Virus record (IMG/VR): IMGVR_UViG_3300033571_012915
Span: 1-40,197 of that record
Origin: a virus
Strand: one strand, 5' to 3'
Length of the DNA stretch: 40,197 nucleotides
The notes below the pieces were generated by a model that was given only the letters and a program-made list of their open reading frames with translations, searched no databases and had not been told where the DNA came from. Shown here in pieces: positions 5,195-35,634 of the stretch. Position 1 is the stretch's first letter. Each line of letters opens with the position of its first letter. The translations under genes and the position numbers were made by a program.

Positions 5195-5424
5195 GGGAAT
5201 CTCTGCGAGTCCAATACTTCCAGAACACGAACCCAGAGAGCCGACACAAAGGCAAGTGGGGATTCAAGATCAAGGAATTCAAAGGCGGTGGGTGGTTCAA
5301 CACCCACAAAACCCGCTACGACTTTGCGACGCGCCTTGAGGCAGTTGAGGCCGCCAAGGTCTACGTCAAGGCGAATCACCCCGGGCAGTGGAAAGAGCTT
5401 CCGAAGCGGAGGGTTAAGCGATGA
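5191..5424 (+). CDS. Small basic protein (77 aa), unknown function
   Basis: A 77-residue basic protein with many aromatic and Lys/Arg residues (GKWGFKIKEFKGGGWFN) and a helical middle (FATRLEAVEAAKVYVKANHP). The pattern of a three-stranded sheet plus helix resembles small AP2/integrase-arm-like DNA-binding modules, but this is only suggestive. The start is GTG 5191 (GTGA overlap with the membrane protein). Confidence 0.65.
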   Translation: MRESLRVQYFQNTNPESRHKGKWGFKIKEFKGGGWFNTHKTRYDFATRLEAVEAAKVYVKANHPGQWKELPKRRVKR

Positions 5425-5474
5425 GCTCAGTCTGCATCGCCCTTGCCTTCCTAGATGGTGGGGTGAGATGGTGA
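5421..5474 (+). CDS. Possible 17-codon leader peptide before methyltransferase 1
   Basis: ATG 5421 has GGAGG in good position and overlaps the previous stop as ATGA. The 17-codon frame (MSSVCIALAFLDGGVRW) ends 6 nt inside the methyltransferase start at 5468. It is probably a translational relay that delivers ribosomes to the methyltransferase, not a functional protein. Confidence 0.35.
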   Translation: MSSVCIALAFLDGGVRW

Positions 5475-6238
5475 CCCATCTGTCACTATTTTCTGGAATC
5501 GGAGGCATCGACCTCGCAGCTCATTGGGCTGGATTCCGTTCGGTAGGAATGGTTGAGCGAGAACCATTCTGCAAGCAAGTCCTCGCGAAGAACTTCCCAG
5601 GAGTACCAATATTTGATGACGTTAAAGAATTCGATGGATCGCAGTTCAGAGGGGTCACGCTTGTCAGCGCAGGCTTCCCTTGCCCTCCCCACTCAGTTGC
5701 AGGAAAACGCCTTGCGTCTCGCGATGAGCGTGACCTGTGGGGTGACGTGGTCAGGATACTGGGGGAAGCGAAACCTAGATGGTTCGTGGGAGAGAATGTG
5801 TCAGGAATCCTTACCTCTGAACATGGACGATTCTTCGGACGAGTGGTGGATGACTTGGTGTCGATGGGGTTTCGTGTCGGATGGTGTATGTTTGGAGCTT
5901 GCGACGTTGAAGCTCCCCACGAAAGAGACCGAGTCTTTATACTTGCCCACTCCGACAACGAGTCAGGACTACAAGCCGATCCGTCAGCTCACTCCGTCCG
6001 AGAGTATGGGGAGTCATGGGAAGTCTCTTGTCGGAGCGATTGGGGACATATTCGGAATCAAAACTGGGACAGGGTATCGGTTAAACCCACAATTCACAGA
6101 GATGATGATGGGTTTTCCAAAGGACTGGACGAAAGTAGATTGAAAGCACTTGGCAATGCTGTTGTGCCGCAGCAAATTCTTCCAATTATGAACGCGATAT
6201 CACATATTGAATCGCGACCACAAGGAGAAACGAAATGA
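5468..6238 (+). CDS. Cytosine-C5 DNA methyltransferase 1
   Basis: A 256-residue Dcm-type enzyme. Motif I (LSLFSGIGGIDLAAHWAGF) binds AdoMet. Motif IV (SAGFPCPPHSVAGKR) carries catalytic Cys72, with Pro-His where Gln-Pro-Phe is usual. Motif VI is GENVSG, motif VIII ERDRVFILA and motif X ALGNAVVPQQ. The target-recognition region between VIII and X is only about 70 residues, much shorter than in typical enzymes, and that DNA also encodes another frame. No restriction endonuclease is adjacent, so it is an orphan enzyme, probably protecting phage DNA from host restriction. The ATG at 5468 is chosen because motif I begins at once and the upstream frame is the shadow of the previous gene. Confidence 0.88.
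   Translation: MVTHLSLFSGIGGIDLAAHWAGFRSVGMVEREPFCKQVLAKNFPGVPIFDDVKEFDGSQFRGVTLVSAGFPCPPHSVAGKRLASRDERDLWGDVVRILGEAKPRWFVGENVSGILTSEHGRFFGRVVDDLVSMGFRVGWCMFGACDVEAPHERDRVFILAHSDNESGLQADPSAHSVREYGESWEVSCRSDWGHIRNQNWDRVSVKPTIHRDDDGFSKGLDESRLKALGNAVVPQQILPIMNAISHIESRPQGETK
5553..6143 (+). CDS. Nested +1-frame ORF inside methyltransferase 1
   Basis: An open frame of up to 196 codons wholly inside the methyltransferase gene, in the +1 register. The C-terminal 75 residues do not look like noise: LPTPTTSQDYKPIRQL, then GSHGKSLVGAIGDIFGIKTG and RLNPQFTEMMMGFPKDW. From memory, phage and methyltransferase-linked proteins often carry W/LPTPT...LNP.F..W.MGFP..W segments. The first 100 residues are less convincing, so the functional product may start later, or the segment may be reached by frameshifting from the methyltransferase. 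The TTG start at 5553 is only the first possible one. The function is unknown; it might supply the recognition part missing from the short host frame. Confidence 0.45.
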   Translation: MSENHSASKSSRRTSQEYQYLMTLKNSMDRSSEGSRLSAQASLALPTQLQENALRLAMSVTCGVTWSGYWGKRNLDGSWERMCQESLPLNMDDSSDEWWMTWCRWGFVSDGVCLELATLKLPTKETESLYLPTPTTSQDYKPIRQLTPSESMGSHGKSLVGAIGDIFGIKTGTGYRLNPQFTEMMMGFPKDWTKVD

Positions 6239-7332: not shown

Positions 7333-7636
7333 GTTAACTCAGAACCAGATTGACGACATCCGGCACACGCTCGGGTGGAGCCACACGCCAAAGGTCAACA
7401 AGCTAGGTTGGCGCAACTACTACTGGACAAAGGAGCAACTGCCAGAGCTTGACGATCTCGTAGCCAAGGGTTTTATGGTTCGGCATCCAATCAACCCAAT
7501 CTATCAGGTGACCAAGGCGGGAGCAAAAGCAATCGGCATGAGCGACAAGCGGATTAAGAAACTTGGAGACGTGTTGCAAGACCCACGCCCAACCCCCGAA
7601 GGCATGAAGCAGGTGTGGCCGGAGGTGGAGGGTTGA
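7325..7636 (+). CDS. Early protein of unknown function, possible winged-helix (103 aa)
   Basis: A 103-residue basic protein. The arrangement of helices and a strand pair (YYWTKEQLPELDDLVAKGFM then HPINPIYQVTKAGAKAIGM) resembles a winged-helix module of the kind that ends with a V-T-x-x-G-x-x-A pattern. Its stop codon abuts the ATG of the nested frame at 7637, and its tail contains GGAGGTGGAGGG, a strong ribosome-binding site for the next gene. Confidence 0.65.
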   Translation: MGELTQNQIDDIRHTLGWSHTPKVNKLGWRNYYWTKEQLPELDDLVAKGFMVRHPINPIYQVTKAGAKAIGMSDKRIKKLGDVLQDPRPTPEGMKQVWPEVEG

Positions 7637-8577
7637 ATGGCTTGGTACAACGAGTTCGACCCCAGAGCGGCGGTGTGGCTCCAATCCCTAGCGGACGGGT
7701 TGACACAAGATCAATTACAGAGCTTCGACCCGAGGACATTCCAGATTCCGGTCAGTGCCACTTCTTTGCCGGAATTGGAGGCTGGGGCCTTGCTTTTAGA
7801 CTTGCAGGGATCTCAGACGATGCCCACGCCTGGTCAGCAAGTCTGCCATGCCAGCCGTTCAGCATTGCAGGACAAAGAAGGGGACGTGAGGACGACAGAC
7901 ACCTGTTTCCAGTCTTCTATGAGCTTGTGCGAGTCAAGCGACCTCCAATCATTTTTGGAGAACAGGTTGCGTCAGCGGATGGACTTGAATGGCTCGCCGG
8001 AGTACACACTGCAATGGAAAACGCGGGTTACCTCTTCGCATCTGCCGATCTGTCAGCTGCGAGCGTCGGGGCGCCGCACGTCAGGCAAAGACTCTACTGG
8101 GGCGCATGGTTACCCGGCAGTGACCTGCAACACCGCAACGTGGACATCGGACGGGTTTGGGGACAATTTGCACGAAGCGGCAACCAAGCTGATGGGTTAT
8201 CCAACGGTGCGAGCGACGGGCGCATCCAGCACAACTCGGGAGGATTTCACGGACTCTCTGCCGGAGATTGCGACCAAACTCTTAGGCTACTCAACCCTAT
8301 CGGCATCGGATGCTCAGGGGAGCCACGGTGGAGGGCAGGGGTCGTCGGCCAGAACGGATGCCCAGATAGTGACGCATGGGGCGACCACTTCCAAGCCTGG
8401 GCAGACGGCACCACGCGGCGCACTGAACCCGGACTTCTGCCGCTGGCTCATGGGTTTCCCGAGAGAGTGGGTCTTATACGGGGCTTTGGCAATGCAATCG
8501 TCCCGCAAGTCGCCAAGGTCTTCATTGAAGAGTTCTGGGACGCCTGTATTGACTATCAACAAAGAGGCAGACAATGA
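7615..8577 (+). CDS. Cytosine-C5 DNA methyltransferase 2 (N-terminus probably frameshifted)
   Basis: Motif I (CHFFAGIGGWGLAFRLAG), motif IV (ASLPCQPFSIAGQRRGRE, catalytic Cys79), a variant motif VI (FGEQVAS), motif VIII region (GAPHVRQRLYWGAW) and motif X (GFGNAIVPQVAKV) identify a phage-type C5 enzyme distinct from the one at 5468. Homologues I recall begin with a YNE.DP.AA.WL helix. Here that helix is coded in the next frame (7637..7696), and a one-base slip at GGG 7697..7699 would join it to VDTRSI in this frame. Without the slip, translation must use GTG 7615 or GTG 7675. The catalytic core is complete either way. No endonuclease is nearby. Confidence 0.85.
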   Translation: MAGGGGLNGLVQRVRPQSGGVAPIPSGRVDTRSITELRPEDIPDSGQCHFFAGIGGWGLAFRLAGISDDAHAWSASLPCQPFSIAGQRRGREDDRHLFPVFYELVRVKRPPIIFGEQVASADGLEWLAGVHTAMENAGYLFASADLSAASVGAPHVRQRLYWGAWLPGSDLQHRNVDIGRVWGQFARSGNQADGLSNGASDGRIQHNSGGFHGLSAGDCDQTLRLLNPIGIGCSGEPRWRAGVVGQNGCPDSDAWGDHFQAWADGTTRRTEPGLLPLAHGFPERVGLIRGFGNAIVPQVAKVFIEEFWDACIDYQQRGRQ

Positions 8578-8587
8578 CCCCGATTGA
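7637..8587 (+). CDS. Nested +1-frame ORF over methyltransferase 2
   Basis: A 316-codon frame overlapping almost the whole methyltransferase in the +1 register. It has the best translation signal here: ATG directly after the previous stop, with GGAGG. Residues 1..20 (MAWYNEFDPRAAVWLQSLAD) look like the displaced methyltransferase N-terminus. The later part holds NGSPEYTLQWK, SHLPICQLRASGRRTSGKD, repeated motifs KLMGYPT and KLLGYST, and LNPDFCRWLMGFPREWV near the end. I recall similar proteins as hypothetical partners overlapping phage C5 methyltransferases. The function is unknown. The product could be a separate protein or a frameshift fusion. Confidence 0.5.
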   Translation: MAWYNEFDPRAAVWLQSLADGLTQDQLQSFDPRTFQIPVSATSLPELEAGALLLDLQGSQTMPTPGQQVCHASRSALQDKEGDVRTTDTCFQSSMSLCESSDLQSFLENRLRQRMDLNGSPEYTLQWKTRVTSSHLPICQLRASGRRTSGKDSTGAHGYPAVTCNTATWTSDGFGDNLHEAATKLMGYPTVRATGASSTTREDFTDSLPEIATKLLGYSTLSASDAQGSHGGGQGSSARTDAQIVTHGATTSKPGQTAPRGALNPDFCRWLMGFPREWVLYGALAMQSSRKSPRSSLKSSGTPVLTINKEADNDPD

Positions 8588-20975: not shown

Positions 20976-22534
20976 TAGAAGCCTCTTACGAGAACGTAGC
21001 CAGCAACGACCGTATTACCAGCCGTCGAGACTCTTGCACGGATGAGCTGGCAGTTGATGCCGTTGACGACTGCCTTGACGGTTGATGACGCTACGGCCGT
21101 CAGCGGGTTGCCGATGTCAAACCATGTTCCGCCGTTGTCGTCGGAGCCTTGGAGTTGCAACGCTGGGGGAGTTGTCGCTGCCCCAATGTTGATTGTGAGG
21201 CTTGCGTTTCGGCAGTTCGCCACCGATAGTCCAGTGGTTGCCGCGTTCAGAGTCGTCAGTGATACGGTTCGGTCAAACGCTTGGCGTATTGGTTCATCAA
21301 TAGCGAGGTTGGATTGAAGCCTGTTGATTGCGCGGGTAAAGCTTGGGGATGTTCCGGTCAGTGTTTGGACGTACCGAATTCGGTTGCCCCGAGTTGGGAG
21401 CATCGGAGATCGGTAGTTACCTGTTCCAGTGATCCTTGGGAACTCGTAGACGGTGTACCAGTTGGTTCCGGTGTCGTCTGATTCCTCGATTCTCACATCA
21501 AGCGTTGGGCTAGTCCCTGAAACCGCCGTAACGGGAATGTTGACCTGATAGGAGACGCCAGCCGAAGGCGTAAGTGCGGCGGTGTTTGCCGAGCCAGTGA
21601 TCGCCGCCGAAGCAACGTCCGCGACGGTTGCCGGGACACCAAGTGTTGCCGCCGCGACTGTAGCCGTGACGGTTCCCGAGACAGGCTGGGTTCCTGAGAC
21701 TTGAGCCGCTGGGATTGGCTCGGTGGCGTAGGTGCCTTGAACAAACCGCCAGGACTGAGTACCCGAAGTTCTCGCCGTACACCGAACCCGAACCCGCTTG
21801 AGAGCGTTGACCGACATTTCCCACGCATAAGCCGGAGCCGCCGAAAGGTTGCCTGTTGCGGTTTCAATGGTGTTTGCGTTCGACCTGACAGCCTGAATAC
21901 CAAACCAGTTCGTATCACCCGTTGCCTCAATGCTTCCCTCAAAAGTGACGTTGATCGTTGAGAACGTCCCCGTACAGAACGCCATGACGTTGGAGGCCCG
22001 TGAGACATCGCCCGAGACGGTTCCACCCGCTACCGGGGTTCCGATGGTTGCCTGTACCGCTGTAATGTCTCCCGTGATGTCGGCATAGCTGGCAGGCTTG
22101 GACGACACTTTGAGCCGCCCTTCCTCATCAATCTTGAGCAGGGTGTAATCGCCGTCGTCGCTCGTTGTTACGGCGTCGGTTGAAGACCGCATCCCGAGCA
22201 AAGGAAGTCCGAGATCACCAGACGCCGCCGCCGAGTCCTCCGCCTTGTACGCCGCTAGGATAGCCGCCAAGGTCGTTTGAGTCGCCGCGCCCGTTGGAAG
22301 GGGCAGAGAAGCCGCTGAGATGGGAATAGCGTTGCCAGCATCGTTCGTGATCTCCACCGAGCCAGCGATGTCGACGTTACCGATAACCTCAATGGCTTGC
22401 TGGTCAAAGGCGATAGCGACAGGCACGGATGCCGCCATTGCCTTCTGTCCCTTCGTCGGAACCTTTGCATCGATGGCTTGCAGAGTTGTCTCTGTAGCTA
22501 TATCGGCTGGAATAATTTCAAGAGCGTCTGGCAT
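20975..22534 (-). CDS. Tail/neck appendage-type structural protein (519 aa)
   Basis: A 519-residue protein rich in Thr, Ala and Val. The N-terminus has ATETTLQAIDAKVPTKGQKA and TQTTLAAILAAYKAE, the repeated TTLAAI trimerising style common in phage fibre attachment regions. The middle (VTFEGSIEATGDTNWFGIQA, then RVRVRCTARTSGTQSWRF) and later Ig-like strands repeat a similar pattern (LDVRIEESDDTGTNWYTVYE). It is likely a fibre or appendage with beta-sandwich repeats. ATG 22534 is used since it follows the upstream stop closely; an earlier start adds a Cys-rich shadow. Confidence 0.68.
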   Translation of the reverse strand: MPDALEIIPADIATETTLQAIDAKVPTKGQKAMAASVPVAIAFDQQAIEVIGNVDIAGSVEITNDAGNAIPISAASLPLPTGAATQTTLAAILAAYKAEDSAAASGDLGLPLLGMRSSTDAVTTSDDGDYTLLKIDEEGRLKVSSKPASYADITGDITAVQATIGTPVAGGTVSGDVSRASNVMAFCTGTFSTINVTFEGSIEATGDTNWFGIQAVRSNANTIETATGNLSAAPAYAWEMSVNALKRVRVRCTARTSGTQSWRFVQGTYATEPIPAAQVSGTQPVSGTVTATVAAATLGVPATVADVASAAITGSANTAALTPSAGVSYQVNIPVTAVSGTSPTLDVRIEESDDTGTNWYTVYEFPRITGTGNYRSPMLPTRGNRIRYVQTLTGTSPSFTRAINRLQSNLAIDEPIRQAFDRTVSLTTLNAATTGLSVANCRNASLTINIGAATTPPALQLQGSDDNGGTWFDIGNPLTAVASSTVKAVVNGINCQLIRARVSTAGNTVVAGYVLVRGF

Positions 22535-22536
22535 GG

Positions 22537-22794
22537 TTAATATCCCGTAATGAGGACAATTTGTCCGGTCGGTGCAACCCAAAGGCAGTTTCTGGTTGGC
22601 TGAGTAGCGTCGTTGCGAACAGGAAGGTCACCAGCGGTGAATCCGACCCCGTCGGCTCCATCAGCGCCGTCAGCACCTGCGGGTCCTTGTGGGCCGGTGG
22701 GACCAATCGCATACTCGCCGTTAATGGTTACCGAGCCAGGAACAGCAAGCGTAATAGAATAGGGAGCGGGGACGGTTACAAGAACCTCACTCAT
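22537..22794 (-). CDS. Short protein with collagen-like repeat (85 aa)
   Basis: An 85-residue protein with seven Gly-X-Y triplets in the middle (GPTGPQGPAGADGADGADG), flanked by an N-terminal beta strand region and a C-terminal module (VGFTAGDLPVRNDA...). Collagen-like triplets trimerise phage fibres, so it probably forms a thin trimeric spacer or tail decoration. Overlaps the preceding gene by 8 nt. Confidence 0.72.
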   Translation of the reverse strand: MSEVLVTVPAPYSITLAVPGSVTINGEYAIGPTGPQGPAGADGADGADGVGFTAGDLPVRNDATQPTRNCLWVAPTGQIVLITGY

Positions 22795-23125
22795 CCTCGT
22801 TCACCACCGTCCTGACTTTCAATTCTCCTTCAAGGATGAGGGTCTGAGTTGCTCCAGAAGATTCCCAAAGCTCTACAGTGAACGGAATCAATTTGGAGGT
22901 AAACGCTCTAGTCTCGGCAACCGTGAACTCAAGCAAAGCAATTCCGGAGGCGGCGTTGGTGATTGTGAACCCTGAGTTGCTTACGCCAGTCTTCTTGATC
23001 AACCGAGGAGTTGTACCTGCGACGAACACCAGCTGCTTTCCCGTTAGGTTAACTGCTGAACCACTTTGGGAAACAGTCATCGTTACCGGAAGCGTTGTGC
23101 CTTTGATTACTTCAATCTGTGTCAT
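22787..23125 (-). CDS. BppU-like/Ig-like tail protein (112 aa)
   Basis: A 112-residue protein beginning IEVIKGTTLPVTMTVSQSGS, then VNLTGKQLVFVAG and a closing strand TQTLILEGELKVRTVV. This is the beta-sandwich pattern of the N-terminal domain of baseplate upper proteins (I-x-x-G-x-T-x-P-l-T). It heads the fibre group that sits between the chaperones and the tape measure, and may attach those fibres to the tail. Confidence 0.6.
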   Translation of the reverse strand: MTQIEVIKGTTLPVTMTVSQSGSAVNLTGKQLVFVAGTTPRLIKKTGVSNSGFTITNAASGIALLEFTVAETRAFTSKLIPFTVELWESSGATQTLILEGELKVRTVVNEDE

Positions 23126-23131
23126 TTCGGT

Positions 23132-23137
23132 TAGAAT
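23132..23137 (+). promoter_or_regulatory. Putative -10 box (TAGAAT) of the plus-strand gene at 23144
   Basis: TAGAAT ends 6 nt before the ATG, exactly the arrangement at the leftward regulator gene. There is no clear -35. A GAGG within the 6-nt spacer could also serve as a ribosome-binding site. It gives the lone plus-strand gene its own transcription inside the late operon. Confidence 0.5.
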
Positions 23138-23143
23138 GAGGCG

Positions 23144-23512
23144 ATGAAACCTCTTGTTATTGGGCTTGGAATTGTTGCGCTTGCACTAGGTGCTGTGTTC
23201 GTCAAGCAAGCCATGACGCCAGCGATGACATTTGAGTGGACCGTCAACGAAAACAACGTGAGCGTAGGAACGATCACCAACACAACATCACAGACTTTTG
23301 AACGTGTCTCGCTCTGGGTCCCGGTATCAGTCACCAAAGGAAACTTCTCTGTTCAAACAACTCAGGACGGCAAATGCTTTGGGATGAGAGACCTTGACCT
23401 CAAACCTGGTCAATCGTTCCCGGCTCAATTCTTTGCACAAGGATTAACCGCAAATACCGTCCCTGAAATTCAATCCCCTTCGGGAAGCGTGCGTGTCGTG
23501 CTTGCTCGTTGA
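23144..23512 (+). CDS. Moron-like membrane-anchored or secreted protein
   Basis: The only credible plus-strand gene in the structural region. The 122-residue product starts MKPLVIGLGIVALALGAVFV, a signal anchor or signal peptide, followed by a beta-rich extracytoplasmic domain (TFEWTVNENNVSVGTITNTT and FERVSLWVPVSVTKGNFSV) similar in style to small Ig-like envelope domains. It carries its own promoter-like box. Such isolated, oppositely oriented genes are commonly lysogenic-conversion genes expressed from the prophage. Its last 43 bp overlap the end of the antisense GT chaperone frame. Confidence 0.75.
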   Translation: MKPLVIGLGIVALALGAVFVKQAMTPAMTFEWTVNENNVSVGTITNTTSQTFERVSLWVPVSVTKGNFSVQTTQDGKCFGMRDLDLKPGQSFPAQFFAQGLTANTVPEIQSPSGSVRVVLAR

Positions 23513-24071
23513 GCCGATCTCATTTGCTCGAGAATCTCTCTTGATGTCATGTCGATGATGTCAGCGGCCCACCTGTGATCAGGCTTCGGAATCTCTTCCC
23601 CGCCTAGCTTCTCGTAGATGCCGTGAAGCAGTTCAAGAACCTGAGCGTCGTAGCTTAGGCTTCTTCTGGTGAGTCTGAAGACTGCTTCGGCTGCACAGCT
23701 TTTGGGTCGGCTGAAACCGCCTTGTTGAGCTCGTTGGCGGCGACGACAAGCAGGTTGTACTCGTCTTCCCTCACAACCGATGCCCGAAGTAGCTCCTCAA
23801 AGCTGTACGGCTCATCCTGCCTCTGCATGATGCAAAGACCAGCCAGAGAGTAGGCGTAGGTTTCGGTGACTAAGATGTACCGCTCATCAACCATGAACGG
23901 GAATTCGCCGGCGGGTCCCCACTGCTGAAACTTCTCTTTTCCGAGAGCTTCGTAACGCATCGTGGATGCCGTGTCCATCTTCTCAAGGATGACCTTCCCG
24001 AATGTGGGAAGGTCGAGTTTCTTGCGAGGGAGAACCGGCGCCGGGATGTCGAAGAAGTTTGCCCGTGACAT
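23470..24071 (-). CDS. Tail assembly chaperone GT fusion made by -1 frameshift
   Basis: Reading the G gene up to the slippery heptamer (23700..23706) and slipping back one base gives 76 more codons without a stop, ending at TGA 23470..23472, for a 200-residue product. The extension is protein-like: SYDAQVLELLHGIYEKLGGE then DHRWAADIIDMTSREILEQM, unlike random shadow. This fills an otherwise empty gap after the G stop. In lambda and most long-tailed phages such G/GT pairs bind the tape measure during tail assembly. Confidence 0.85.
23655..24071 (-). CDS. Tail assembly chaperone, G-type
   Basis: A 138-residue protein just after the major tail protein, the standard place of the lambda G-like chaperone. 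It is helical and acidic (KVILEKMDTASTMRYEALGK, FEELLRASVVREDEYNLLVV) with a flexible Ser/Gln/Pro end. The zero-frame product is the abundant form. A slippery sequence 15 codons before its stop gives the GT form. The start overlaps the tail tube stop by one base. Confidence 0.85.
   Translation of the reverse strand: MSRANFFDIPAPVLPRKKLDLPTFGKVILEKMDTASTMRYEALGKEKFQQWGPAGEFPFMVDERYILVTETYAYSLAGLCIMQRQDEPYSFEELLRASVVREDEYNLLVVAANELNKAVSADPKAVQPKQSSDSPEEA
23700..23706 (-). promoter_or_regulatory. Programmed -1 frameshift site C CCA AAA
   Basis: On the minus strand the heptamer is read GAC|CCA|AAA in the G frame, so it has the X XXY YYZ form, and both tRNAs can re-pair with CCC AAA after slipping. 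Downstream the -1 frame is open for 76 codons. No strong pseudoknot is obvious by eye. Confidence 0.85.
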
Positions 24072-24598
24072 TAGCTGAACGCCGGGTTAGCGACGTATGC
24101 TCCTGCGTTCATAAACGCGAAGGTCTCAAGGTTCATCTTCCAAGTCGACTTGCCCTTGACGTATGTCTCGGTGTGGCCGTTGTACTGCGCGTAGATGGTC
24201 TCGGTCTGAACCGTGGTTCCCGCGTTGTCTTTGATGGTGACGACCAGCTGGTAGTAGTAGCCAGCCAAAGCCAGGGCAGGGATCACATTGCGGTGGATTC
24301 CGGTGTTTGTGTCGGTGGTTCCAGCAGAGGTTGATGCCAAAGCCTGAGCAATCTCGGTGATCGTGAAGTTTGTACCCTGCTCAACGATGACCCGGTTCCG
24401 GTAGGGTGAGTCGCTTGGCGAGATCGAAACCTTGTCAACTTCGTTCGAAGCCGAAAGCGGATCCACGTCAAGGATTCCGAAGAACGTGAATCCAGATGCT
24501 GCAACGGTCATTACTCCGGTTGCTCCTGCGATCGTTACCACCTTTGCGCTGATAGCGACATTCTTTCCAAGTAGCCACTGTGGGACTGCGTTTGCCAT
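24071..24598 (-). CDS. Major tail tube protein
   Basis: A 175-residue beta-rich protein between the neck genes and the chaperones. The pattern (KVVTIAGATGVMTVAASGF, VIVEQGTNFTITEIAQAL, YYQLVVTIKDNAGTTVQTET) is that of tail tube subunits, which stack as hexamers. Start directly follows the stop of the 34-codon gene (TAAATG). Place in the gene order is the main evidence. Confidence 0.82.
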   Translation of the reverse strand: MANAVPQWLLGKNVAISAKVVTIAGATGVMTVAASGFTFFGILDVDPLSASNEVDKVSISPSDSPYRNRVIVEQGTNFTITEIAQALASTSAGTTDTNTGIHRNVIPALALAGYYYQLVVTIKDNAGTTVQTETIYAQYNGHTETYVKGKSTWKMNLETFAFMNAGAYVANPAFS

Positions 24599-24703
24599 TT
24601 ATTTGTTACCTTCTTTTGGGTCGTTGACAACTACGGGGGAGTCGTCAGGAACTTCGATTTCTTGCGTCACTCCGCCGAGTCCTTTGATTGTTTTCGTGCT
24701 CAT
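24599..24703 (-). CDS. 34-aa gene before the tail tube gene
   Basis: A 34-codon frame that exactly fills the gap between the gp10-like gene and the tail tube gene: its ATG overlaps the upstream TGA (ATGA) and its TAA touches the next ATG. The peptide starts MSTKTIKGLGGVTQEIEV and ends DDSPVVVNDPKEGNK, hydrophilic and unordered at the end. It contains an AAGAAGGT ribosome-binding site for the tail tube. It may be a small structural or coupling protein. Confidence 0.68.
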   Translation of the reverse strand: MSTKTIKGLGGVTQEIEVPDDSPVVVNDPKEGNK

Positions 24704-25212
24704 AGCTTGTCAATTTCCTGAAGAGCTGTCTGCAAGTTGATGTCTCGCCAAGGTGCCACCACATGGGCGACCCGCTGAACGATTGGGCGGCTGATCTGCA
24801 ACGTGTTCGGAGTGTTCTCAATGAATTCCGCGTGCTCCGTCTCGTTGATCAAAGCGTTGACCATTTCGCCGTTCTGGAAGTGTCCGATCTGTTCGCGCCA
24901 GCCAGAAGCGAACTCGCCAGTCTGAATGTTGATGACGCCAGGATCACCCTCGTTCGGGATTGGTCCTCTCGGCCCTAACGCTCCGTTTGCCCCTTGCCCG
25001 TAAGGGTGACCAAGACCTCCGGCGGCGACCGCTGTGCCGAGCATCTTCTCGGTTGCCGTCCCACTGCTGTATTCATGAGCGACGTCCCCCATAATCCGGA
25101 GCGTCTGGTGCTCAGCAACCTCGACGTGGTGAAGAATCATAATCGCCGCATCATCGAACGCAGTCCTGGGCGTGAACCCAGTCTGGTTCCCTAGGGTAAT
25201 CGTGATTGGCAT
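24700..25212 (-). CDS. Head-tail (neck) protein, HK97-gp10-like
   Basis: A 170-residue protein between the head-closure genes and the tail tube. An N-terminal helical region precedes a loop-rich, glycine/proline segment (HPYGQGANGALGPRGP) and a C-terminal part with NALINETEHAEFIENTPNTL. The YA/HAEFIE-type strand and position fit gp10-family neck proteins. ATG 25212 overlaps the previous stop (TGATG). The assignment is by place and weak pattern. Confidence 0.6.
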   Translation of the reverse strand: MPITITLGNQTGFTPRTAFDDAAIMILHHVEVAEHQTLRIMGDVAHEYSSGTATEKMLGTAVAAGGLGHPYGQGANGALGPRGPIPNEGDPGVINIQTGEFASGWREQIGHFQNGEMVNALINETEHAEFIENTPNTLQISRPIVQRVAHVVAPWRDINLQTALQEIDKL

Positions 25213-25697
25213 CAGAGTGCTGCTACATAGAGCTTGGGGAACGTGATCAAACCACCGCAAACCGTCACACCTGACTGAGTGCGAAGCGTTTGCATCACAG
25301 GGTTGAGATCAGAGCTATCGATCACAGCGTCAGCCATCATGCAGAACGTCTCGTTCGACCGTGTCCTCACGGCTTCGTCGAGGGCTTGTAGTTTTGCGTT
25401 GATCGTGGTCTGTGTCGCTTCGTTTGCTTCCGAGTCGATGTAGAAGACCGTGACCGGACCGTTCTTGTCGTTCCTGTCCGACGTGAGGTTGATCGGCGTG
25501 AAGTTTCCAAACGCCAGGAAGCAATATGGAAGCCCAGGATTGTCGTCCGTCATTCGGACCGTGATGTTGGTCTTGAGCGACTGGATCGCAGTGAAGAAGT
25601 TGGAGACTGAGCCAGAACCCGGCATGATAATCTCAGGCCACACAGTGGAAATGATGTCCTGCCACTCGGCTTGAAAGGCTGGTAGGTAGTCTGCCAT
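25212..25697 (-). CDS. Putative tail terminator / tail completion protein
   Basis: A 161-residue alpha/beta protein. NITVRMTDDNPGLPYCFLAF, then KNGPVTVFYIDSEANEATQT and a C-terminal strand pattern (SGVTVCGGLITFPKLYV) suggest the small mixed fold of tail terminators. It is coded upstream of the gp10-like gene, next to the neck genes. The role is inferred from order. Confidence 0.58.
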   Translation of the reverse strand: MADYLPAFQAEWQDIISTVWPEIIMPGSGSVSNFFTAIQSLKTNITVRMTDDNPGLPYCFLAFGNFTPINLTSDRNDKNGPVTVFYIDSEANEATQTTINAKLQALDEAVRTRSNETFCMMADAVIDSSDLNPVMQTLRTQSGVTVCGGLITFPKLYVAAL

Positions 25698-25999
25698 TAG
25701 ATGTCTCGCTTTTTGGGAAGTGGTTCGCTTTCCGGGTTCATGTAGTCAATCCAATTCGACTTACTGCCGTTGAAATCAACAATCCGCCTTGATCGCCAAA
25801 GCTTGAAAGCTATCATTCGATCCGCTACAAACTTGACCAACTCTTGCTCGTCTGTGAAAATTTGCTCGGTGTAATGGGTCTCAATAAGGCCGTCTTCATC
25901 CTTTAACCCACCTTCGGGATAAACGAGAATCCATCCGCCGTTGGCTTCCCTAATGAAAAAGTCGCAGTCCACTCCGACTGGGGTTATAACCGCGCTCAT
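25697..25999 (-). CDS. Neck-region protein of unknown function (100 aa)
   Basis: A 100-residue protein with alternating strands (CDFFIREANGGWILVYPEGG) and a basic helix (LVKFVADRMIAFKLWRSRRI). No family recognised. It lies between head-closure and tail-terminator candidates, overlapping each by a base, so it is probably a connector accessory protein. Confidence 0.62.
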   Translation of the reverse strand: MSAVITPVGVDCDFFIREANGGWILVYPEGGLKDEDGLIETHYTEQIFTDEQELVKFVADRMIAFKLWRSRRIVDFNGSKSNWIDYMNPESEPLPKKRDI

Positions 26000-26397
26000 T
26001 AACTCACCTTGGGTTCCGGTGTCGGAGTCGTGTAGAAGGTCTGGTAACCAGAGAGAGGTCTCTTGTCGGGGTCACCCATCACCATTTGCCACAGGACTCT
26101 GCCGTCCCTGGTCGTGATCTTCACAACGTCTTCGGCGCGAATGTCGAGACTGATGTCGCAGTCGATGACGTCGGACGTCATGATGTTCTGCTTCTTGAGG
26201 ATCGCCGGGAGAGCTCTTCCGAATCGCTCGTCAAAGTTGTGGGTGCCGTGGTGGTTGACCGCATACCCCGAGTGGATCAGCTTAAATCCGTTGACGAAAT
26301 CACCCGCGGAGTTTCGGTCCGTGGAGAGGTTTCCCAGTCGATAAACGTCGCAAGTGTCCAGATCGAGAATAGCGACGGGTCTGGTGATGCTTGGCAT
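25999..26397 (-). CDS. Putative head-closure (stopper) protein
   Basis: A 132-residue beta-rich protein following the connector gene. Strand pattern IRAEDVVKITTRDGRVLWQM followed by a basic GDPDKRPLSGYQ loop resembles head-closure proteins (SPP1 gp16 / HK97 gp7-type), which bind below the adaptor ring. ATG 26397 overlaps the upstream stop. Evidence is order and size. Confidence 0.58.
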   Translation of the reverse strand: MPSITRPVAILDLDTCDVYRLGNLSTDRNSAGDFVNGFKLIHSGYAVNHHGTHNFDERFGRALPAILKKQNIMTSDVIDCDISLDIRAEDVVKITTRDGRVLWQMVMGDPDKRPLSGYQTFYTTPTPEPKVS

Positions 26398-27074
26398 TAG
26401 ACAAGCACCGGCCTTGTTCGTTGAAGGAACGTGCGAAGCGGTCGCCGATAAAGTGCTTTGGCTGCATCGAACTCCGATTTCCACCCGGCAAGCGTTCCGA
26501 TTTGCTCAGATGACCAGGTGAAGTCTTGGTCGAGGTCTTTAAGACCCGTGAGCATTCCGTTTCCAGACATTCTCGCCGCGTCTGCAAGGTTTGCCGCCGC
26601 CTTGGACGCCACTGCCGACCAGATCGCCGCAGGGACTTCTTCAAAGCCAAACTGGGCGGTTACCTTGATGTTCGACCGACCTTGTGGGAACTTGGTCCAC
26701 CAGCCGACACTCATGTTCGAAGGTCCGCGAAGGATTTGGACGTGCGTCTTTGGGAATGGTGGGTGCTCGACCTCTGCCCAGTTCGTAATCGTGATGGTCG
26801 AAACGCCTGGGAGCTGAAGGAATTCGATGGACTCAATGGAGACGTATTCGTCAATGACGATCTCTCCGGTCCCGGAGCCGTTGTAGTAGCGAATCTCTCC
26901 GGTCGCGCCAGGAGCGAACTTTCGCCCGGTTGCATGCTCAAGTTCAGCAATAGCAGCATCGATCTTGAGTTGCTTAATGTCGGCAGTCACACCAGCACCA
27001 AGAGTGATGTTTGCGGACGCCAGGAGATCGGTCACGTCGGAAACGGTTGGATATGCGGTGTAGTCGATTGCCAT
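26397..27074 (-). CDS. Head-tail connector (gp6/gp15-like adaptor)
   Basis: A 225-residue protein. The N-terminal half (VSDVTDLLASANITLGAGVT, IDAAIAELEHATGRKFAP) shows the helical hallmark of adaptor proteins, followed by a strand region ending in a typical WWTKFPQGRSNIKVTAQFGF and helices with AAIWSAVASKAAANLADAAR. It follows the capsid and coat accessory genes, as adaptors do. ATG 27074 is preferred over 27098, since the upstream eight residues come from a hairpin region. Confidence 0.8.
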   Translation of the reverse strand: MAIDYTAYPTVSDVTDLLASANITLGAGVTADIKQLKIDAAIAELEHATGRKFAPGATGEIRYYNGSGTGEIVIDEYVSIESIEFLQLPGVSTITITNWAEVEHPPFPKTHVQILRGPSNMSVGWWTKFPQGRSNIKVTAQFGFEEVPAAIWSAVASKAAANLADAARMSGNGMLTGLKDLDQDFTWSSEQIGTLAGWKSEFDAAKALYRRPLRTFLQRTRPVLV

Positions 27075-27084
27075 GAAATCTGTT

Positions 27085-27111
27085 CCCCGGCATTGCACCG
27101 GGGGAGTTTTT
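27085..27111 (+). terminator. Hairpin with T tract on the plus strand, 3' of the capsid genes
   Basis: CCCCGG (27085..27090) and CCGGGG (27098..27103) form a strong stem around a 7-nt loop. TTTTT follows at 27107 on the plus strand, so it is an intrinsic terminator in that direction, where it could stop antisense transcripts. On the minus strand it lacks a T tract and may protect the 3' end of the capsid message or reduce read-through. Confidence 0.55.
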
Positions 27112-27122
27112 GTTGTGCGTCC

Positions 27123-27524
27123 TTACGGAGCGGCGGCTGTGATGTCCGCGAAGTAGGTGATCGTTGGCGACGTGCCAGCGCCTGCAATGGTCACCGAAAG
27201 GCGAACCTGTGCGTTTGCTGGGGTCGCGAGCACCTTTGCGCCGACTGGGAACTCGATCGGAAGATAGGCTTCCGCGGCCTGTGCGGTGGCGCTGAGCGTG
27301 ATCGTTGAAGCAACGAATCCGGTGGTCCAAGTTGAACCACCATCGACGGTGTACTCCAGCGAGAAGATCGCCGTGTTCGATCCCGAAGCGTTTGCCGCAG
27401 CCGAGTAGATAACTCGGGCGAACATTTCTCGGTTCGATCCGTAGGGGAGTGATTTGCCGGTACCGTTGAAGGTAGCGGTCTTGGTGACTGATGCCTGTAG
27501 GGCAAGTAGTGCGTCTGCTGCCAT
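27123..27524 (-). CDS. Capsid-associated beta-sandwich protein, putative decoration/head protein
   Basis: A 133-residue protein 12 nt below the major capsid gene. It is beta-rich and contains an Asp-box-like turn (TVDGGSTWTTGF) within a strand pattern like small Ig-like domains, then VGAKVLATPANAQVRLSVTI. The position suggests a head decoration protein or cement. An AAGGAAA site precedes the ATG. Confidence 0.55.
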   Translation of the reverse strand: MAADALLALQASVTKTATFNGTGKSLPYGSNREMFARVIYSAAANASGSNTAIFSLEYTVDGGSTWTTGFVASTITLSATAQAAEAYLPIEFPVGAKVLATPANAQVRLSVTIAGAGTSPTITYFADITAAAP

Positions 27525-27536
27525 TGTCTTGTTTCC

Positions 27537-28547
27537 TTACGACACCTTGATATCGTAGAGTCGGGAGATCGCACGGGTGTGCGTCTGGTAGAGACCGATC
27601 GGCCACTCCAAGAAGGTGCGGAAGATCGTTGGCTCATCAGGGCGCATCCCAAGCTGTTGAACAGCCAGAGGCGACATCTGCCAGCCATTGAACGTGTCCT
27701 CTCCGTAGCGGACGCCGTAGATCGAGCTGTAGTTGCTCGAGCCGTTGGCACCTGCGGCGGTTTCGGTGTTCGTGATGATCTCGGTGCTTTGGTCTGCCTT
27801 AACACCAACCGAGCGGATGACCGCGTTTCGGAAGGTGGTGACCTTTCGACCAAATGCGTCCTGGGTCATGTCGAAACCACCACCAGCCCCAAGGAGCCGG
27901 ATTGCCGAGTTGATTCGGCGTCGGACGTTTCGGTTCATGTACAGAACAACACCGTCACCCTCTGGGGCGCCCATTTCGTCAAGCATCTGCTCAAGGAAGC
28001 GGATCAGAGTGTTTGCAGTTCCGGAAGTGATACCGGAGTTGGACAAGTCCACACCACCAGCATCGATCTTACAAGCCGAGTTGGTTCCCCAAACGGATGG
28101 ATTGTCAAGTCGGTCGCGAAGTCCAACGAACGAGTCAGCGTTTCCGGTGACGTGGTTGTTGTTGATGAACTTGTCGTTGATGTCGTACGACCAGGCGGTG
28201 AGAACCATCTTGACCTGCTGGTCAGCTGGGTTCCCAACGGCGTTCTGATCCATCATCAGAACTCGGTCAACATCAATGGCGTTTGAGCCGATGTAAACCT
28301 GTTCCGAGAATGGAGCAGCGGTTCCGCTTGCGACGGTGGTCGAGCCGTTGATCTTGCGCCATCCCATGTTGGGAAGGCCGCCGATCACGCGGGAGCCGTT
28401 GACTTTCATCGTCGGTTTGGTGACAAATGCGATGTCGTTGAGAACAGAGTCCACCTGAAGCAAGGAATAAGCAATTCCCTGAATCAAAGGCTCGTTCGAC
28501 TGCATCGCCCACTGTTGGAGTGTTAGCGAGTTTGAATCTACTGCCAT
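27537..28547 (-). CDS. Major capsid protein
   Basis: A 336-residue protein directly after the scaffold. Segments such as NDIAFVTKPTMKVNGSRVIG, KINGSTTVASGTAAPFSEQV, YDINDKFINNNHVTGNADSF and FLEQMLDEMGAPEGDGVVLY, followed by MNRNVRRRINSAIRLLG, and an ending FRTFLEWPIGLYQTHTRAIS fit an HK97-fold coat of the type found in temperate phages with separate scaffolds. No cleavage motif is evident near the N-terminus. Order (portal, Mu-F-like, scaffold, capsid) supports the call strongly. Confidence 0.88.
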   Translation of the reverse strand: MAVDSNSLTLQQWAMQSNEPLIQGIAYSLLQVDSVLNDIAFVTKPTMKVNGSRVIGGLPNMGWRKINGSTTVASGTAAPFSEQVYIGSNAIDVDRVLMMDQNAVGNPADQQVKMVLTAWSYDINDKFINNNHVTGNADSFVGLRDRLDNPSVWGTNSACKIDAGGVDLSNSGITSGTANTLIRFLEQMLDEMGAPEGDGVVLYMNRNVRRRINSAIRLLGAGGGFDMTQDAFGRKVTTFRNAVIRSVGVKADQSTEIITNTETAAGANGSSNYSSIYGVRYGEDTFNGWQMSPLAVQQLGMRPDEPTIFRTFLEWPIGLYQTHTRAISRLYDIKVS

Positions 28548-28642
28548 GAGCTTTCTTTTCGTATAGGGTCATCACTGACTTATGGCGTCAGGCACCAACG
28601 ACGAGTACACGTTCTTGAGCGCGAACGGCGCGGCTGGTCATG

Positions 28643-28659
28643 GGGAGCGTTATGCTCCC
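28643..28659 (-). other. RNA hairpin between scaffold and capsid genes
   Basis: GGGAGC (28643..28648) and GCTCCC (28654..28659) form a 6-bp stem around 5 nt, overlapping the scaffold stop codon. There is no T tract, so it is not a terminator. It lies about 95 nt upstream of the capsid start and might be a processing or stability element. The 102-bp gap holds no credible gene. Confidence 0.4.
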
Positions 28660-29264
28660 GGAGTGAGAGGTGATCGGACAGCGGCAAGCCGTTGAGGGTC
28701 ATTAGCGACCTTCACTGCTTCTGCACCGATGCTGATTCGTCCCCAGTCCTTTGGCTCAAGAGCTTGAGGAGGGGCGGTCTGCACAGGAACACTGCCTGGT
28801 AAACCTGGGTTGGTTGGAGATCCGCCGACAATCGAAACGGGTGCCACTTGTGGAACGAGAACCGTTCGAAGCTCGATGAGAGCGTCGTACTTCTCCGAGT
28901 TGGTCGAGTAAGCCCGGGTAAGGTTGCGTGCCTTCTCCTGCATCTCAGGAGCCAGTGTTGCAACTTCTCGCTCAAAGAGATCAGCGAACTTCTGCTCGGA
29001 TTGGGTCGCCTGAAGCTTGTACTGCTCGGCAGCCGAAAGATTCTTCTTGGCGTCCTCAAGTTCGACCTTGAGTCGGTCGTTCTCGGCAAGCTTTGCGCGC
29101 TCCGCTTCGGTCAGAAGGGCTTCGGCGGCTTCGGCTTTCTTGCGAAGCTCCTCGCGCTCTGCCTCAACGGCTCGTTTCTCGTCGAGGATGCGCTTGTTCT
29201 GCTCTCTGAGCTGTCGCACGCCTTCTGGCTCGACTGGTTCTGGGATTGGAGGTACTGCGCTCAT
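28650..29264 (-). CDS. Scaffolding protein
   Basis: A 204-residue protein, nearly all charged coiled coil from residues 15 to 110 (RQLREQNKRILDEKRAVEAE, REELRKKAEAAEALLTEAER), with a Pro/Gly-rich C-terminus. This is the classic composition of capsid scaffolds and it lies just before the capsid gene. ATG 29264 is chosen because it overlaps the upstream stop as ATGA. Upstream extension is a shadow. Confidence 0.9.
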   Translation of the reverse strand: MSAVPPIPEPVEPEGVRQLREQNKRILDEKRAVEAEREELRKKAEAAEALLTEAERAKLAENDRLKVELEDAKKNLSAAEQYKLQATQSEQKFADLFEREVATLAPEMQEKARNLTRAYSTNSEKYDALIELRTVLVPQVAPVSIVGGSPTNPGLPGSVPVQTAPPQALEPKDWGRISIGAEAVKVANDPQRLAAVRSPLTPGA

Positions 29265-29638
29265 TGAGCGACCCTCTGGTAGACATTGCAACCGGTCGAG
29301 GCGTCCCACGCGATCCACTTGACGTTCACGCCAGCGATCTGACTGGACATCTTGCTTTGATCAAGGAAGGGCTTGCAGGCATCCATTTCGCCAGTGATCG
29401 GGTTCTCGATCTGAGTTGACCAAGGTGGTCCTTCGAACGGATGACCAAGCCAGACAAATGCGTCGTCTGGTCCTTCCCAATAGCCTTCCTCCACGACTCG
29501 TTGATAGCCTTCCTTGTCTGGTTCGGACATGACGGGCGGAATGAAGTGAGCGACGTAGCCTTGCGCCTGGTCGGTCTTCCAGTCTCTGGTTGACGCCACC
29601 AGCGGTTCTGGTACGGGTTTGGTTTTAGCTGTTGCCAT
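29261..29638 (-). CDS. Head-module protein of unknown function (125 aa)
   Basis: A 125-residue protein with a proline-rich N-terminus and several aromatic clusters (GYWEGPDDAFVWLGHPFEGP). It overlaps the scaffold start as ATGA. The family is not recognised. Its place suggests an accessory role in head assembly. Upstream, 80 bp contain nothing convincing. Confidence 0.65.
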   Translation of the reverse strand: MATAKTKPVPEPLVASTRDWKTDQAQGYVAHFIPPVMSEPDKEGYQRVVEEGYWEGPDDAFVWLGHPFEGPPWSTQIENPITGEMDACKPFLDQSKMSSQIAGVNVKWIAWDASTGCNVYQRVAQ

Positions 29639-29718
29639 GGTGTTCCACGCTTATTAGGCCAAGCGGCGGCCCCTGAGCGCATAGCGCCCAAATCGTTGTG
29701 TTTGGTGTGGCGGTTAGC

Positions 29719-30438
29719 CTAGAACTGGATCACAGTTCCGTCGAGCAGTTGGAGCTCACAGCGGCAGAAGACACCGCATTCTGTTTGACCCGCGCCAGGA
29801 ACGGTCGGCAGTGAGTCTTTTCGATATTCCTTCTGAGCAAGTTTCGGACAATCACGGCATTCGCTTTCGTCCTTGATGTCCACCCACTTGATCTCTTCCC
29901 AAGGAGCAAGCATGTCGACCGCCCCCCAGTTCGCAGTGCCACGAACGCGCTCGTTGTAGAACCGCATCCGGTGCTGAATGGCTTTCTCGTCGTAGTAGTC
30001 GTTCGGAGAGTCAGGAAGATGCGCTGGGGGCATCACTCCGCCTTCTCTGATCCTTGCGAGGATGTCCTTCTCGTCTCCGAGATCGGGGTAAAGTTCCTCA
30101 AGAGACTTGACGTAGCGCCTATCCTTGTCCTCTAGCTGGTCGATGAACCCCTGAAGGAATTCCTCTTGCTCTTTTGCGACGATGTCGATGTAAGGAACCG
30201 TGTCGGCCGGCTGAACATCGCCTCCGGTGCTCTGCGCCCCGTAGACGTAAGCCATCGTGTGGGCATGCTTCAAGGTTGCCATCGATGCCGCGCCAAACTG
30301 GTTGGTGCTGAGCGATCCATTCACAAGCCCTAAGACGTGCGAGACCAGGCTTTCAGTGGTTGCCGCAGTCAGGATGCCAAAGGCGAGATACCAGTAATCC
30401 CGGTTCTCCTTTTTTGGCTTTCTGTACTTGCGAAGCAT
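29719..30438 (-). CDS. Head morphogenesis protein, SPP1 gp7 / Mu F-like
   Basis: A 239-residue protein whose C-terminus has the cysteine pattern of this family: ESECRDCPKLAQKEYRKDSL then TVPGAGQTECGVFCRCELQL. These Cys residues are thought to bind metal. The N-terminal helices interact with portal and capsid in related phages. It lies immediately after the portal gene as is usual. Confidence 0.85.
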   Translation of the reverse strand: MLRKYRKPKKENRDYWYLAFGILTAATTESLVSHVLGLVNGSLSTNQFGAASMATLKHAHTMAYVYGAQSTGGDVQPADTVPYIDIVAKEQEEFLQGFIDQLEDKDRRYVKSLEELYPDLGDEKDILARIREGGVMPPAHLPDSPNDYYDEKAIQHRMRFYNERVRGTANWGAVDMLAPWEEIKWVDIKDESECRDCPKLAQKEYRKDSLPTVPGAGQTECGVFCRCELQLLDGTVIQF

Positions 30439-30449
30439 GACACCCTAGT

Positions 30450-32033
30450 TTACTTTTGTTCCTGCGAATCCTTCTTGGACTTCACCGAACCTGGTAAGTC
30501 ACCCGAGAGGCTTCTTCGTTGACGCGCCATTGCCGAAGCCATGACGTCCTCCTTCTCGGAGGCTTTTGCGTCTCGTTCCTCTTGCTCGACCTTGATTTGC
30601 TCAAGAAGCTCGTCAACGTCGTGAACGTCGTCAGAAGTAGCGATCTTTCGAACCGCCAGCTCCTTGGTCGTCAGCCCACCTTCCACAAGCTTGAGCTGTC
30701 TGTCGGCAAGCTGACCCTTCTCGTCTTCGGTCTGCTCAAAGAATGGAGGCCACTGAATCTGAACGTCTGCGCCGATTCCTGCCGCCCATGCTGTGGAGCC
30801 AAGGTTTGCCATGCCGATGCAAAGGCGCTCCATGAACACACAGAAGCCGTCCTCCCCGTAGAGTTGCCTCTTCTCGTTGGTTCGCTCAATGATTGGGGCG
30901 TAAATCTGGGTCATTACCGCAGCGGTAAGGTTGCCCTTGTTGGTGATGTCTTCCGCGTCCACTTCGACCGAGCCGACCGCTTGCATAAGCTCTTGCTTGA
31001 GCTCCTTGGCAAACGCATCAAGGTGAGGACGGAGAGCGGCATTGGTCTGAAGGAGATCAACGCGCCCCTGCTTGGGGTTCATCGCGTCAACCTTTGACTC
31101 AAGGATCAGAACGGACTGGTCGCCGGTCGAGACTGGGTCGTCTCCATCAGCGGCAGTGAGGTCAATGAACGCCTTGGTGGGATCGATGCTCTTTTGGTTG
31201 TCAATGTGAGCAAGGTTCTTGGTGAAGTTGACTTGGTCGATGATCTCGTACATCGTCCACAGATCGCCTTCACCGTACTGTGTTCCGGTTTCCCGGTTGC
31301 GGATGTACCAAAGAGGAATGATGCCGAAAGCGTTTGGATTCTCGGACGCGATCTCCCAAGTGCCGTAAGCCTCGACCTGGTCGATCATGGCGTATGGGTC
31401 GCTGGTGACGTTTCCTCCGATCATGGAGTTACTGACACGCTTGTAGACCCGGTGAATCTTGTCGGTGTACTCCTCGCGGTGCCAGTAGTTGCAACCGTCG
31501 GTGGGATCATAGACCGGATACTGGATCCGCGCCATCACAAGCCGTTCGTGGTTGTCGTTGTCCCAATAGAGCTGCACTTGCTCGGCTGGGTCCAGAAGGT
31601 CGATCTGCACCCCTTCTGCCTCAGTGTAGGAGAACTTTGCGACGACTCCACCGGAAAGTGCGCCCACAACAGCTGCAACACGGGCCCGGCGGGTCATGTC
31701 GTTGTTCTTCCAGACGCTGTTGATGAGCTTCGTCAGCTCTTCGTAGGCTTCGATGCGTGGATCAGACTCTTCTAGCTCCTCATCGCATGCAACCTTGAAG
31801 GTGACAGGCTTCCCAAAGAGCCAGGTCGCACCCTTGTTCACGATGTTCTGAACGAACGGACGGCAACGTGGGAACGGCCCTCGCTCCTCGGTCTTCCACT
31901 CCCTGGTCATTGCAGAGTAGGAAGGGTACGGCTTGAGTGCGTGGTATGCCCGAGCTGTTCGAGACAATAGGCGCACTTGCTTGTAGTTTGCCGGAAGGAA
32001 CTTGGTTCCCAGTAGCGTTTTTGGATCGATCAT
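30450..32033 (-). CDS. Portal protein (SPP1 gp6-like)
   Basis: A 527-residue protein. Motifs of the SPP1-type portals are visible: FVQNIVNKGATWLFGKPVTF, LINSVWKNNDMTRRARVAAV, PLWYIRNRETGTQYGEGDLW, followed by MYEIIDQVNFTKNL, and TAAVMTQIYAPIIERTNEKR. A charged helical C-terminus (LLEQIKVEQEERDAKASEKE) completes it. It would form the dodecameric DNA channel at one capsid vertex. Starts at ATG 32033, overlapping terL stop as ATGA. Confidence 0.93.
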   Translation of the reverse strand: MIDPKTLLGTKFLPANYKQVRLLSRTARAYHALKPYPSYSAMTREWKTEERGPFPRCRPFVQNIVNKGATWLFGKPVTFKVACDEELEESDPRIEAYEELTKLINSVWKNNDMTRRARVAAVVGALSGGVVAKFSYTEAEGVQIDLLDPAEQVQLYWDNDNHERLVMARIQYPVYDPTDGCNYWHREEYTDKIHRVYKRVSNSMIGGNVTSDPYAMIDQVEAYGTWEIASENPNAFGIIPLWYIRNRETGTQYGEGDLWTMYEIIDQVNFTKNLAHIDNQKSIDPTKAFIDLTAADGDDPVSTGDQSVLILESKVDAMNPKQGRVDLLQTNAALRPHLDAFAKELKQELMQAVGSVEVDAEDITNKGNLTAAVMTQIYAPIIERTNEKRQLYGEDGFCVFMERLCIGMANLGSTAWAAGIGADVQIQWPPFFEQTEDEKGQLADRQLKLVEGGLTTKELAVRKIATSDDVHDVDELLEQIKVEQEERDAKASEKEDVMASAMARQRRSLSGDLPGSVKSKKDSQEQK

Positions 32034-33559: not shown

Positions 33560-33830
33560 TGACTCCCTCTGGGTTCTTCTGAATGAATTCTGGTTTTGAG
33601 CATTCGTTAGCCCATGCGCTGAGCATGGTCACCGTCGCGTGAAGAAAGTTATTGAGTGCGGAGTTGAAGCGGTTCTCTGTCTGAATCTCTGTACCGTTTC
33701 GTACGATTCCCGCTCTCCAAGTTCCGATCGTCGAAGAGGGTAAGCCGTGCTTTTCCGCGGCGTCTCTGACTGACATTCCTGCAATGAGATCAGCAAGAAC
33801 GGCAGCCTTTTGTTCTGGGGTGTATGCCAA
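33468..33830 (-). CDS. Terminase small subunit
   Basis: A 120-residue protein with an N-terminal HTH (KAAVLADLIAGMSVRDAAEK then HGLPSSTIGTWRAG) like helix-turn-helix small terminases, then an oligomerisation region (LNNFLHATVTMLSAWANECS) and an acidic end. It should recognise the pac/cos site. The start is a TTG at 33830 with AGGAGGG upstream, not an ATG. It overlaps terL by 92 nt. Confidence 0.85.
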   Translation of the reverse strand: MAYTPEQKAAVLADLIAGMSVRDAAEKHGLPSSTIGTWRAGIVRNGTEIQTENRFNSALNNFLHATVTMLSAWANECSKPEFIQKNPEGVNELGRTVLERADRFVELLRPTADQDDQGDA

Positions 33831-33842
33831 TGGCTCTCCCTC

Positions 33843-33977
33843 CTACGATCTGAAGTATTTCCGCGCTCTGGTCGATGAGGCCTTAACCCAGGTCTTGTGA
33901 ATCTTCACATAGCCCTTGGCGGTCATGGACTCGATTTGCTTGGCGAGCTTCGTCTTTCGTGATTCCGAACGGGTCAT
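33843..33977 (-). CDS. 44-aa basic protein between small genes and terminase
   Basis: A 44-codon frame starting ATG 33977 (ATGA overlap with the preceding stop) and ending 12 nt before the TTG of the small terminase gene. The peptide is strongly basic (MTRSESRKTKLAKQIESM, ...KASSTRARKYFRS) and helical, so nucleic-acid binding is possible. Its stop region holds the AGGAGGG site of terS. The function is unknown. Confidence 0.62.
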   Translation of the reverse strand: MTRSESRKTKLAKQIESMTAKGYVKIHKTWVKASSTRARKYFRS

Positions 33978-34150
33978 AGTTCCTCGGCGGTGATGTACGT
34001 TCCTTTATCCTTTGCACAGGCAAGAAGCCAAACTGTTTCCTTCATTCGGGCATCGTCAGCATCGAGCGCCTTGACGGTTTGAGCCTTTACGCAGACTGAC
34101 CAAACGCCAGGAATAATCGTCCGCATCAGGCGGATCCGGTAGTCCTTCAT
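33974..34150 (-). CDS. Small protein (58 aa), unknown function
   Basis: Starts at ATG 34150 with an ATGA overlap to the membrane protein gene and ends with an ATGA overlap to the 44-codon gene. The 58 residues (MKDYRIRLMRTIIPGVWSVC... KDKGTYITAEEL) are mixed strands and helix with no membrane segment. An upstream extension of 40 codons is Cys/Arg-rich shadow. No family recognised. Confidence 0.62.
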   Translation of the reverse strand: MKDYRIRLMRTIIPGVWSVCVKAQTVKALDADDARMKETVWLLACAKDKGTYITAEEL

Positions 34151-34335: not shown

Positions 34336-34362
34336 GGTGTTGTCCTTTGTGGGATTGTTTGG

Positions 34363-35409: not shown

Positions 35410-35411
35410 AG

Positions 35412-35633: not shown

Positions 35634-35634
35634 C

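Follow-up and report, generated by a model that had tools for sequence, protein, structure and literature searches.

A probable 22-bp deletion brings the start codon of a phage C5-methyltransferase into the frame of an overlapping gene

The window considered here, which is the whole of a 40,197-base IMG/VR virus record, contains a C5-cytosine methyltransferase gene in which the family-typical N-terminal element lies in the frame of an overlapping second gene. The reading that we favor, at a probability of roughly 58%, is that 22 bp were really deleted in this lineage, probably recently, and that the deletion gave the start of the gene to the overlapping protein and left the enzyme probably impaired. 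The features concerned are as follows.

7615..8577, + strand: C5-cytosine methyltransferase frame (phrog_363), from which the apparent motif II is absent
7621..7632, + strand: twin Shine-Dalgarno-like stretch GGAGGTGGAGGG, read from the sequence, ahead of TTG 7633 and ATG 7637
7633..7635, + strand: TTG, in frame with the methyltransferase and the best-placed candidate for starting a helix-less enzyme
7637..7639, + strand: ATG that would start the methyltransferase in relatives and opens the nested frame here
7637..8587, + strand: nested +1 frame (phrog_1008, 'Mte8-like'), with the helix fused at its N-terminus
7643..7681, + strand: WYNEFDPRAAVWL, the family-conserved N-terminal element (strand-helix), apparently C5-methyltransferase motif II, in the nested frame
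7683..7684, + strand: junction, the bases between which 22 nt of the relatives are missing (DNA alignment, protein column log-odds)
7684..7716, + strand: IPSGRVDTRSI, the family loop and a motif III-like segment, in the methyltransferase frame
7697..7699, + strand: GGG, proposed earlier as a slip site, which is not where the frame changes
7765, 7846, 7960, 8083 and 8488, + strand: intact core motifs I, IV (PCQ), VI (EQV), VIII (RQR) and X (GNA), respectively
8423-8470, + strand: LNPDFCRWLMGFPREW in the nested frame

The displaced element and its relatives

The open reading frame at 7615..8577 encodes a C5-methyltransferase of 320 amino acids that matches phrog_363 (E=7e-50) from residue 24 onward and Pfam PF00145 from profile position 66 only. 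It shares with the phrog_363 enzymes the motif series I, IV, VI, VIII and X, with FAGIGG, PCQ, EQV, RQR and GNA all in one frame, and is 41-46% identical to its nearest relatives; it differs from them in being 22 nt shorter and in that their N-terminal element, YYNExDP..WLR, is here out of the enzyme frame. Members of phrog_363 are annotated in Escherichia phages K1G and N15, Salmonella phage epsilon15, Burkholderia phage BcepC6B and Edwardsiella phage eiAU. The second open reading frame, 7637..8587 (316 amino acids), reads the same DNA in the +1 frame; its first 21 residues resemble phrog_363 positions 10-30, weakly (PHROGs, E=0.08), and what follows them belongs to phrog_1008 (E=5e-21). The helix YNEFDPRAAVWL, at 7643-7681, is thus in the nested frame of ATG 7637, and everything from VDTRSI onward is in the frame of 7615, one frame back. 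This is what a first, sequence-only reading had claimed, and both the frames themselves and a profile of the element built from relatives, which finds the nested-frame helix of the window at E=5e-8, bear it out.

Relatives were gathered from phage records, IMG/VR contigs and bacterial genomes. The element could be placed in 308 non-redundant loci: it lies in the enzyme frame in 306 of them and in the nested frame in the other two, the window and L060. With the frame so conserved and the profile match so strong, the displacement of the helix is beyond chance. The loci were ranked by their match to the core, a procedure biased against core frameshifts, and hence we make no claim that the segment is a hotspot. 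L060 (IMGVR_UViG_3300032020_000540, 1436-1560) has an independent single-base gap in the same segment, which again puts the helix in the nested frame. It is the only other case of this kind, and it is unlike the window in the size of the gap, in retaining an internal nested ATG (at -21) and in being otherwise a different phage. Methyltransferase copies with core frameshifts or breaks were also seen in bacterial genomes (L207, L219, L233, L241).

Position and nature of the frame change

The earlier proposal joined the helix and the core by a one-base -1 slip at GGG 7697..7699 and called the product, LADG-VDTRSI, seamless. It does not survive comparison with relatives. When the DNA is aligned with MAFFT, the only gap in this neighborhood is one of 22 nt, which falls between 7683 and 7684, about 15 nt before the GGG is reached; the enzyme frame ahead of VDTRSI reads PIPSGR, which is the family loop (cf. 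GHIPSGDIDERSI in L081). The helix of the relatives is followed by a loop of 13 residues, such as WLRELIAAGEIPAGDVDTRSI; in the window, WL ends at 7681 and IPSG starts at 7684. A slip at the GGG would leave only 6 residues between WL and VD, where most of the family has 13, and would not restore the loop. Scored against 179 family loops, a junction at 7683/7684 reaches column log-odds of 8.9 bits, as against 5.5 for one at the GGG with a free gap and -1.9 ungapped, a preference that is clear but not overwhelming because both readings use the same bases. Since the switch lies some 15 nt upstream of the G tract, counting reads with three versus four Gs, the check once suggested, would probe the wrong site.

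The frame change is best read as a one-off deletion or an assembly slip, not as a programmed frameshift. A -1 ribosomal frameshift between 7637 and about 7700, yielding enzyme and nested protein from one start, would take advantage of two frames that are both open from 7637 on, and would join helix and core; but the zero frame has no XXXYYYZ heptamer (CCCC at 7660 only), no downstream structure is clearly better than shuffles (z -0.87 and 0.11, pseudoknot-free folding), and the 306 in-frame loci show that the arrangement is not common to relatives, so that recoding is very unlikely. Phase variation by slippage in a short tract, of which the frame difference would be the enzyme's off-state, is scarcely credible in a segment with three Gs and no tandem repeat of any period. 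From the list of causes in the sequence-only reading there remain mutation and, as the less likely of the two, assembly error.

The chief rival, though a minority view, is an assembly or consensus error: the true phage gene would be of family length and in frame, and the metagenome contig would have dropped 22 nt of it. Exact DNA searches over the junction matched no second contig; the helix and the core both still fit the family, and the one-base gap of L060 in the same segment is what errors would give. Against this, an internal loss of 22 nt where there are no flanking or tandem repeats would be unusual as a short-read error. In addition, an independent 18,202-base contig from another sample (L254, 3300032291_002828) is 100% identical to window positions 21996-40197, so the same phage was assembled identically elsewhere, though this contig ends exactly at the window end and the junction site is outside its span. 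Searches with exact peptides, with degenerate DNA for FAGIGGWGLAF, and by megablast of window positions 1-25000 against phages found no close relative.

The state of the two separated parts bears on the age of the event. Of the 56 conserved columns of the enzyme core, the window departs from the family in only 4 (97th percentile), mostly by conservative changes, and its helix is still typical of the family; a recent event or an artefact accounts for this better than an arrangement of long standing. The nested gene itself may be the source of part of the constraint on the core, and the continuing signs of selection on both parts might also mean that in reality the two have never been separated.

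The displaced element as an apparent motif II

The AlphaFold2 model of an intact relative, L014, has pLDDT values of 95-98 over its first 50 residues and begins with a strand at 2-5 (YYNE), a helix at 9-20 and a strand at 28-30, followed by motif I. VIA-align pairs residue 1 of the model with residue 35 of M.HhaI (Z 15.3, rmsd 3.5 over 191 residues). If the register holds, Glu6 would fall on Glu40 of M.HhaI, the motif II residue that binds the ribose of AdoMet. HMMER aligns the family with M.HhaI over residues 3-33, weakly, and over 71-177; residues 34-70, which hold motifs II-III, are skipped. Sequence searches of PDB and Pfam with the N-terminal element alone found no methyltransferase, so the assignment is drawn from the structure alignment and the gap pattern, which together suggest that the displaced element is motif II of the C5-methyltransferases. 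An enzyme without it would, if the assignment is right, be without part of its cofactor site.

In this phage family motifs II-III seem to stand ahead of motif I, giving the order II-III-I-IV and so on (window 7637-7765, L002-L014). The order of motifs in C5-methyltransferases can vary, natural permutations placing motifs IX-X first (PMC5944983). The window enzyme shares the Rossmann fold and the catalytic motifs with M.HhaI and with circularly permuted enzymes such as M.BssHII, but differs from the known permuted ones in that II-III, rather than IX-X, apparently come first (PMC5944983).

The overlapping gene

In this family the nested +1 frame is a genuine gene, and it is under clear selection. 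In 157 loci it has 150 stops where 580 are expected from synonymous codon shuffling of the enzyme, and some of those 150 are natural ends of the nested frame, which closes before the enzyme does; in the +2 frame there is no such depletion (1721 observed, 1623 expected by the same shuffling). The score of the nested-protein profile exceeds that of all 40 shuffles in every one of the 157 held-out loci, which do not include the relatives of the window from which the profile was built, a result that holds after clustering by identity (142/142 at 80%, 97/97 at 65%, 23/23 at 55%). The window's own nested frame has no stops (P 0.0015, synonymous shuffles) and fits the family profile well above its synonymous shuffles, at 178 bits versus 64.5 +/- 11.3. 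The gene is not universal, however: between about a fifth and a quarter of the loci have an internal stop in the nested frame.

Some phage records annotate the overlap, as in K1G, where ORF30, a 'putative Mte8-like protein', lies within ORF31; the literature that we found on it amounts to a one-word mention of Mte8-like and no study of it. The window frame is like phrog_1008 (K1G ORF30) in lying in the +1 frame within a methylase gene, in its LNP..WLMG.P.W motif and in its similar length. Its structure model is mostly of low confidence (pLDDT 58.6), only a helix-hairpin at 99-145 being confident. Compared with PDB the model gave no match at E<=0.001; compared with a viral library at the same threshold it does find matches, members of its own sequence family among them. 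The phage has another methyltransferase, its first (5288-6238), which has the ordinary motif order and likewise holds a nested +1 frame, at 5553-6143 (phrog_1008, E 8e-18; no stops, P 0.0025 by synonymous shuffles).

Translation starts

Relatives in phrog_1008 mostly start at an internal ATG, many of them with an internal Shine-Dalgarno sequence, and here the window differs. An ATG lies 1-27 codons before FAG, chiefly at -15, -21 and -11, in 149 of the 167 loci whose nested frame is open. Where it is at -15, a Shine-Dalgarno-like sequence precedes it in 66 of 83 cases, typically an AGGAG made by the Arg-Ser codons of VDxRSI. Among 184 loci that have the ATG, 85 use AGG for the arginine there, where the codon usage of each gene predicts 17.4, versus 2 of 108 without it (Fisher 1e-18; with one locus per cluster, 2e-8 at 65% and 4e-4 at 55%). 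The AGG codon is strongly enriched in VDxRS exactly where AGGAG forms for the overlapping gene, L007 (ATG at -15) being an example.

At the corresponding position the window reads AGA TCA, with neither AGGAG nor internal ATG, and it is one of the 18 of 167 open-frame loci that have no ATG in -27..-1; because those others lack it too, the loss is only mildly informative. The sole upstream ATG in the nested frame of the window is 7637, with GGAGG five bases ahead, which makes the one good start of the nested frame a methylase-type start and would give the protein, unlike its relatives, a helix-fused N-terminus. The earlier reading was right that this start codon now leads into the nested protein.

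The methyltransferase frame has a candidate start of its own just upstream. GGAGGTG, a 7-nt match to AAGGAGGTGA, stands at a spacing of 5 from TTG 7633 and of 9 from ATG 7637. With this match ahead of the TTG, the separate GGAGG of the ATG, and all the other catalytic motifs intact, one might suppose that the start has simply been relocated and that an enzyme begun at TTG 7633, four bases before the nested ATG, works without the helix. We think this improbable, since the piece that it would lack is kept by 306 loci and corresponds to the apparent cofactor-binding motif II, and the residues that replace it, LNGLVQRVRPQSGGVAP, are unlike the family N-terminus. A helix-less enzyme from TTG 7633, the best candidate, is probably weak or dead because the displaced element appears to be motif II. 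In the laboratory, the fragments of split C5-methyltransferases can be made to reassemble (PMC5944983), which makes it conceivable, if far-fetched, that the nested protein supplies motif II in trans to a core begun at TTG 7633, the twin Shine-Dalgarno stretch and the TTGAATG serving as a dual start.

Consequences for the two genes

Under the preferred reading, a deletion of 22 bp between 7683 and 7684 would have cost the C5-methyltransferase gene about seven codons and a further base near its beginning, with the result that the Shine-Dalgarno sequence, the ATG and the apparent motif II element are now in frame with the +1 gene and out of the frame of the enzyme. Initiation at ATG 7637 would produce the nested protein with the helix fused to it, and that protein would no longer need the internal ribosome-binding site and ATG of its relatives, which are absent here. 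The enzyme could presumably be started only at weak in-frame codons, TTG 7633 being the best of them and GTG 7615, TTG 7642 and GTG 7675 the others; lacking motif II, it would probably have low activity or none, with the nested gene still expressed.

The analysis thus corrects a tempting call of recoding, in that the frame change is an indel located elsewhere. It also draws attention to a widespread and hardly discussed overlapping gene in phage C5-methyltransferases, one that is under strong selection and often has its ribosome-binding site hidden in codons of the enzyme. If the deletion is real, the window would be a natural case in which one indel hands an overlapping gene the start of its partner, and it would allow one to ask which of the two products is indispensable.
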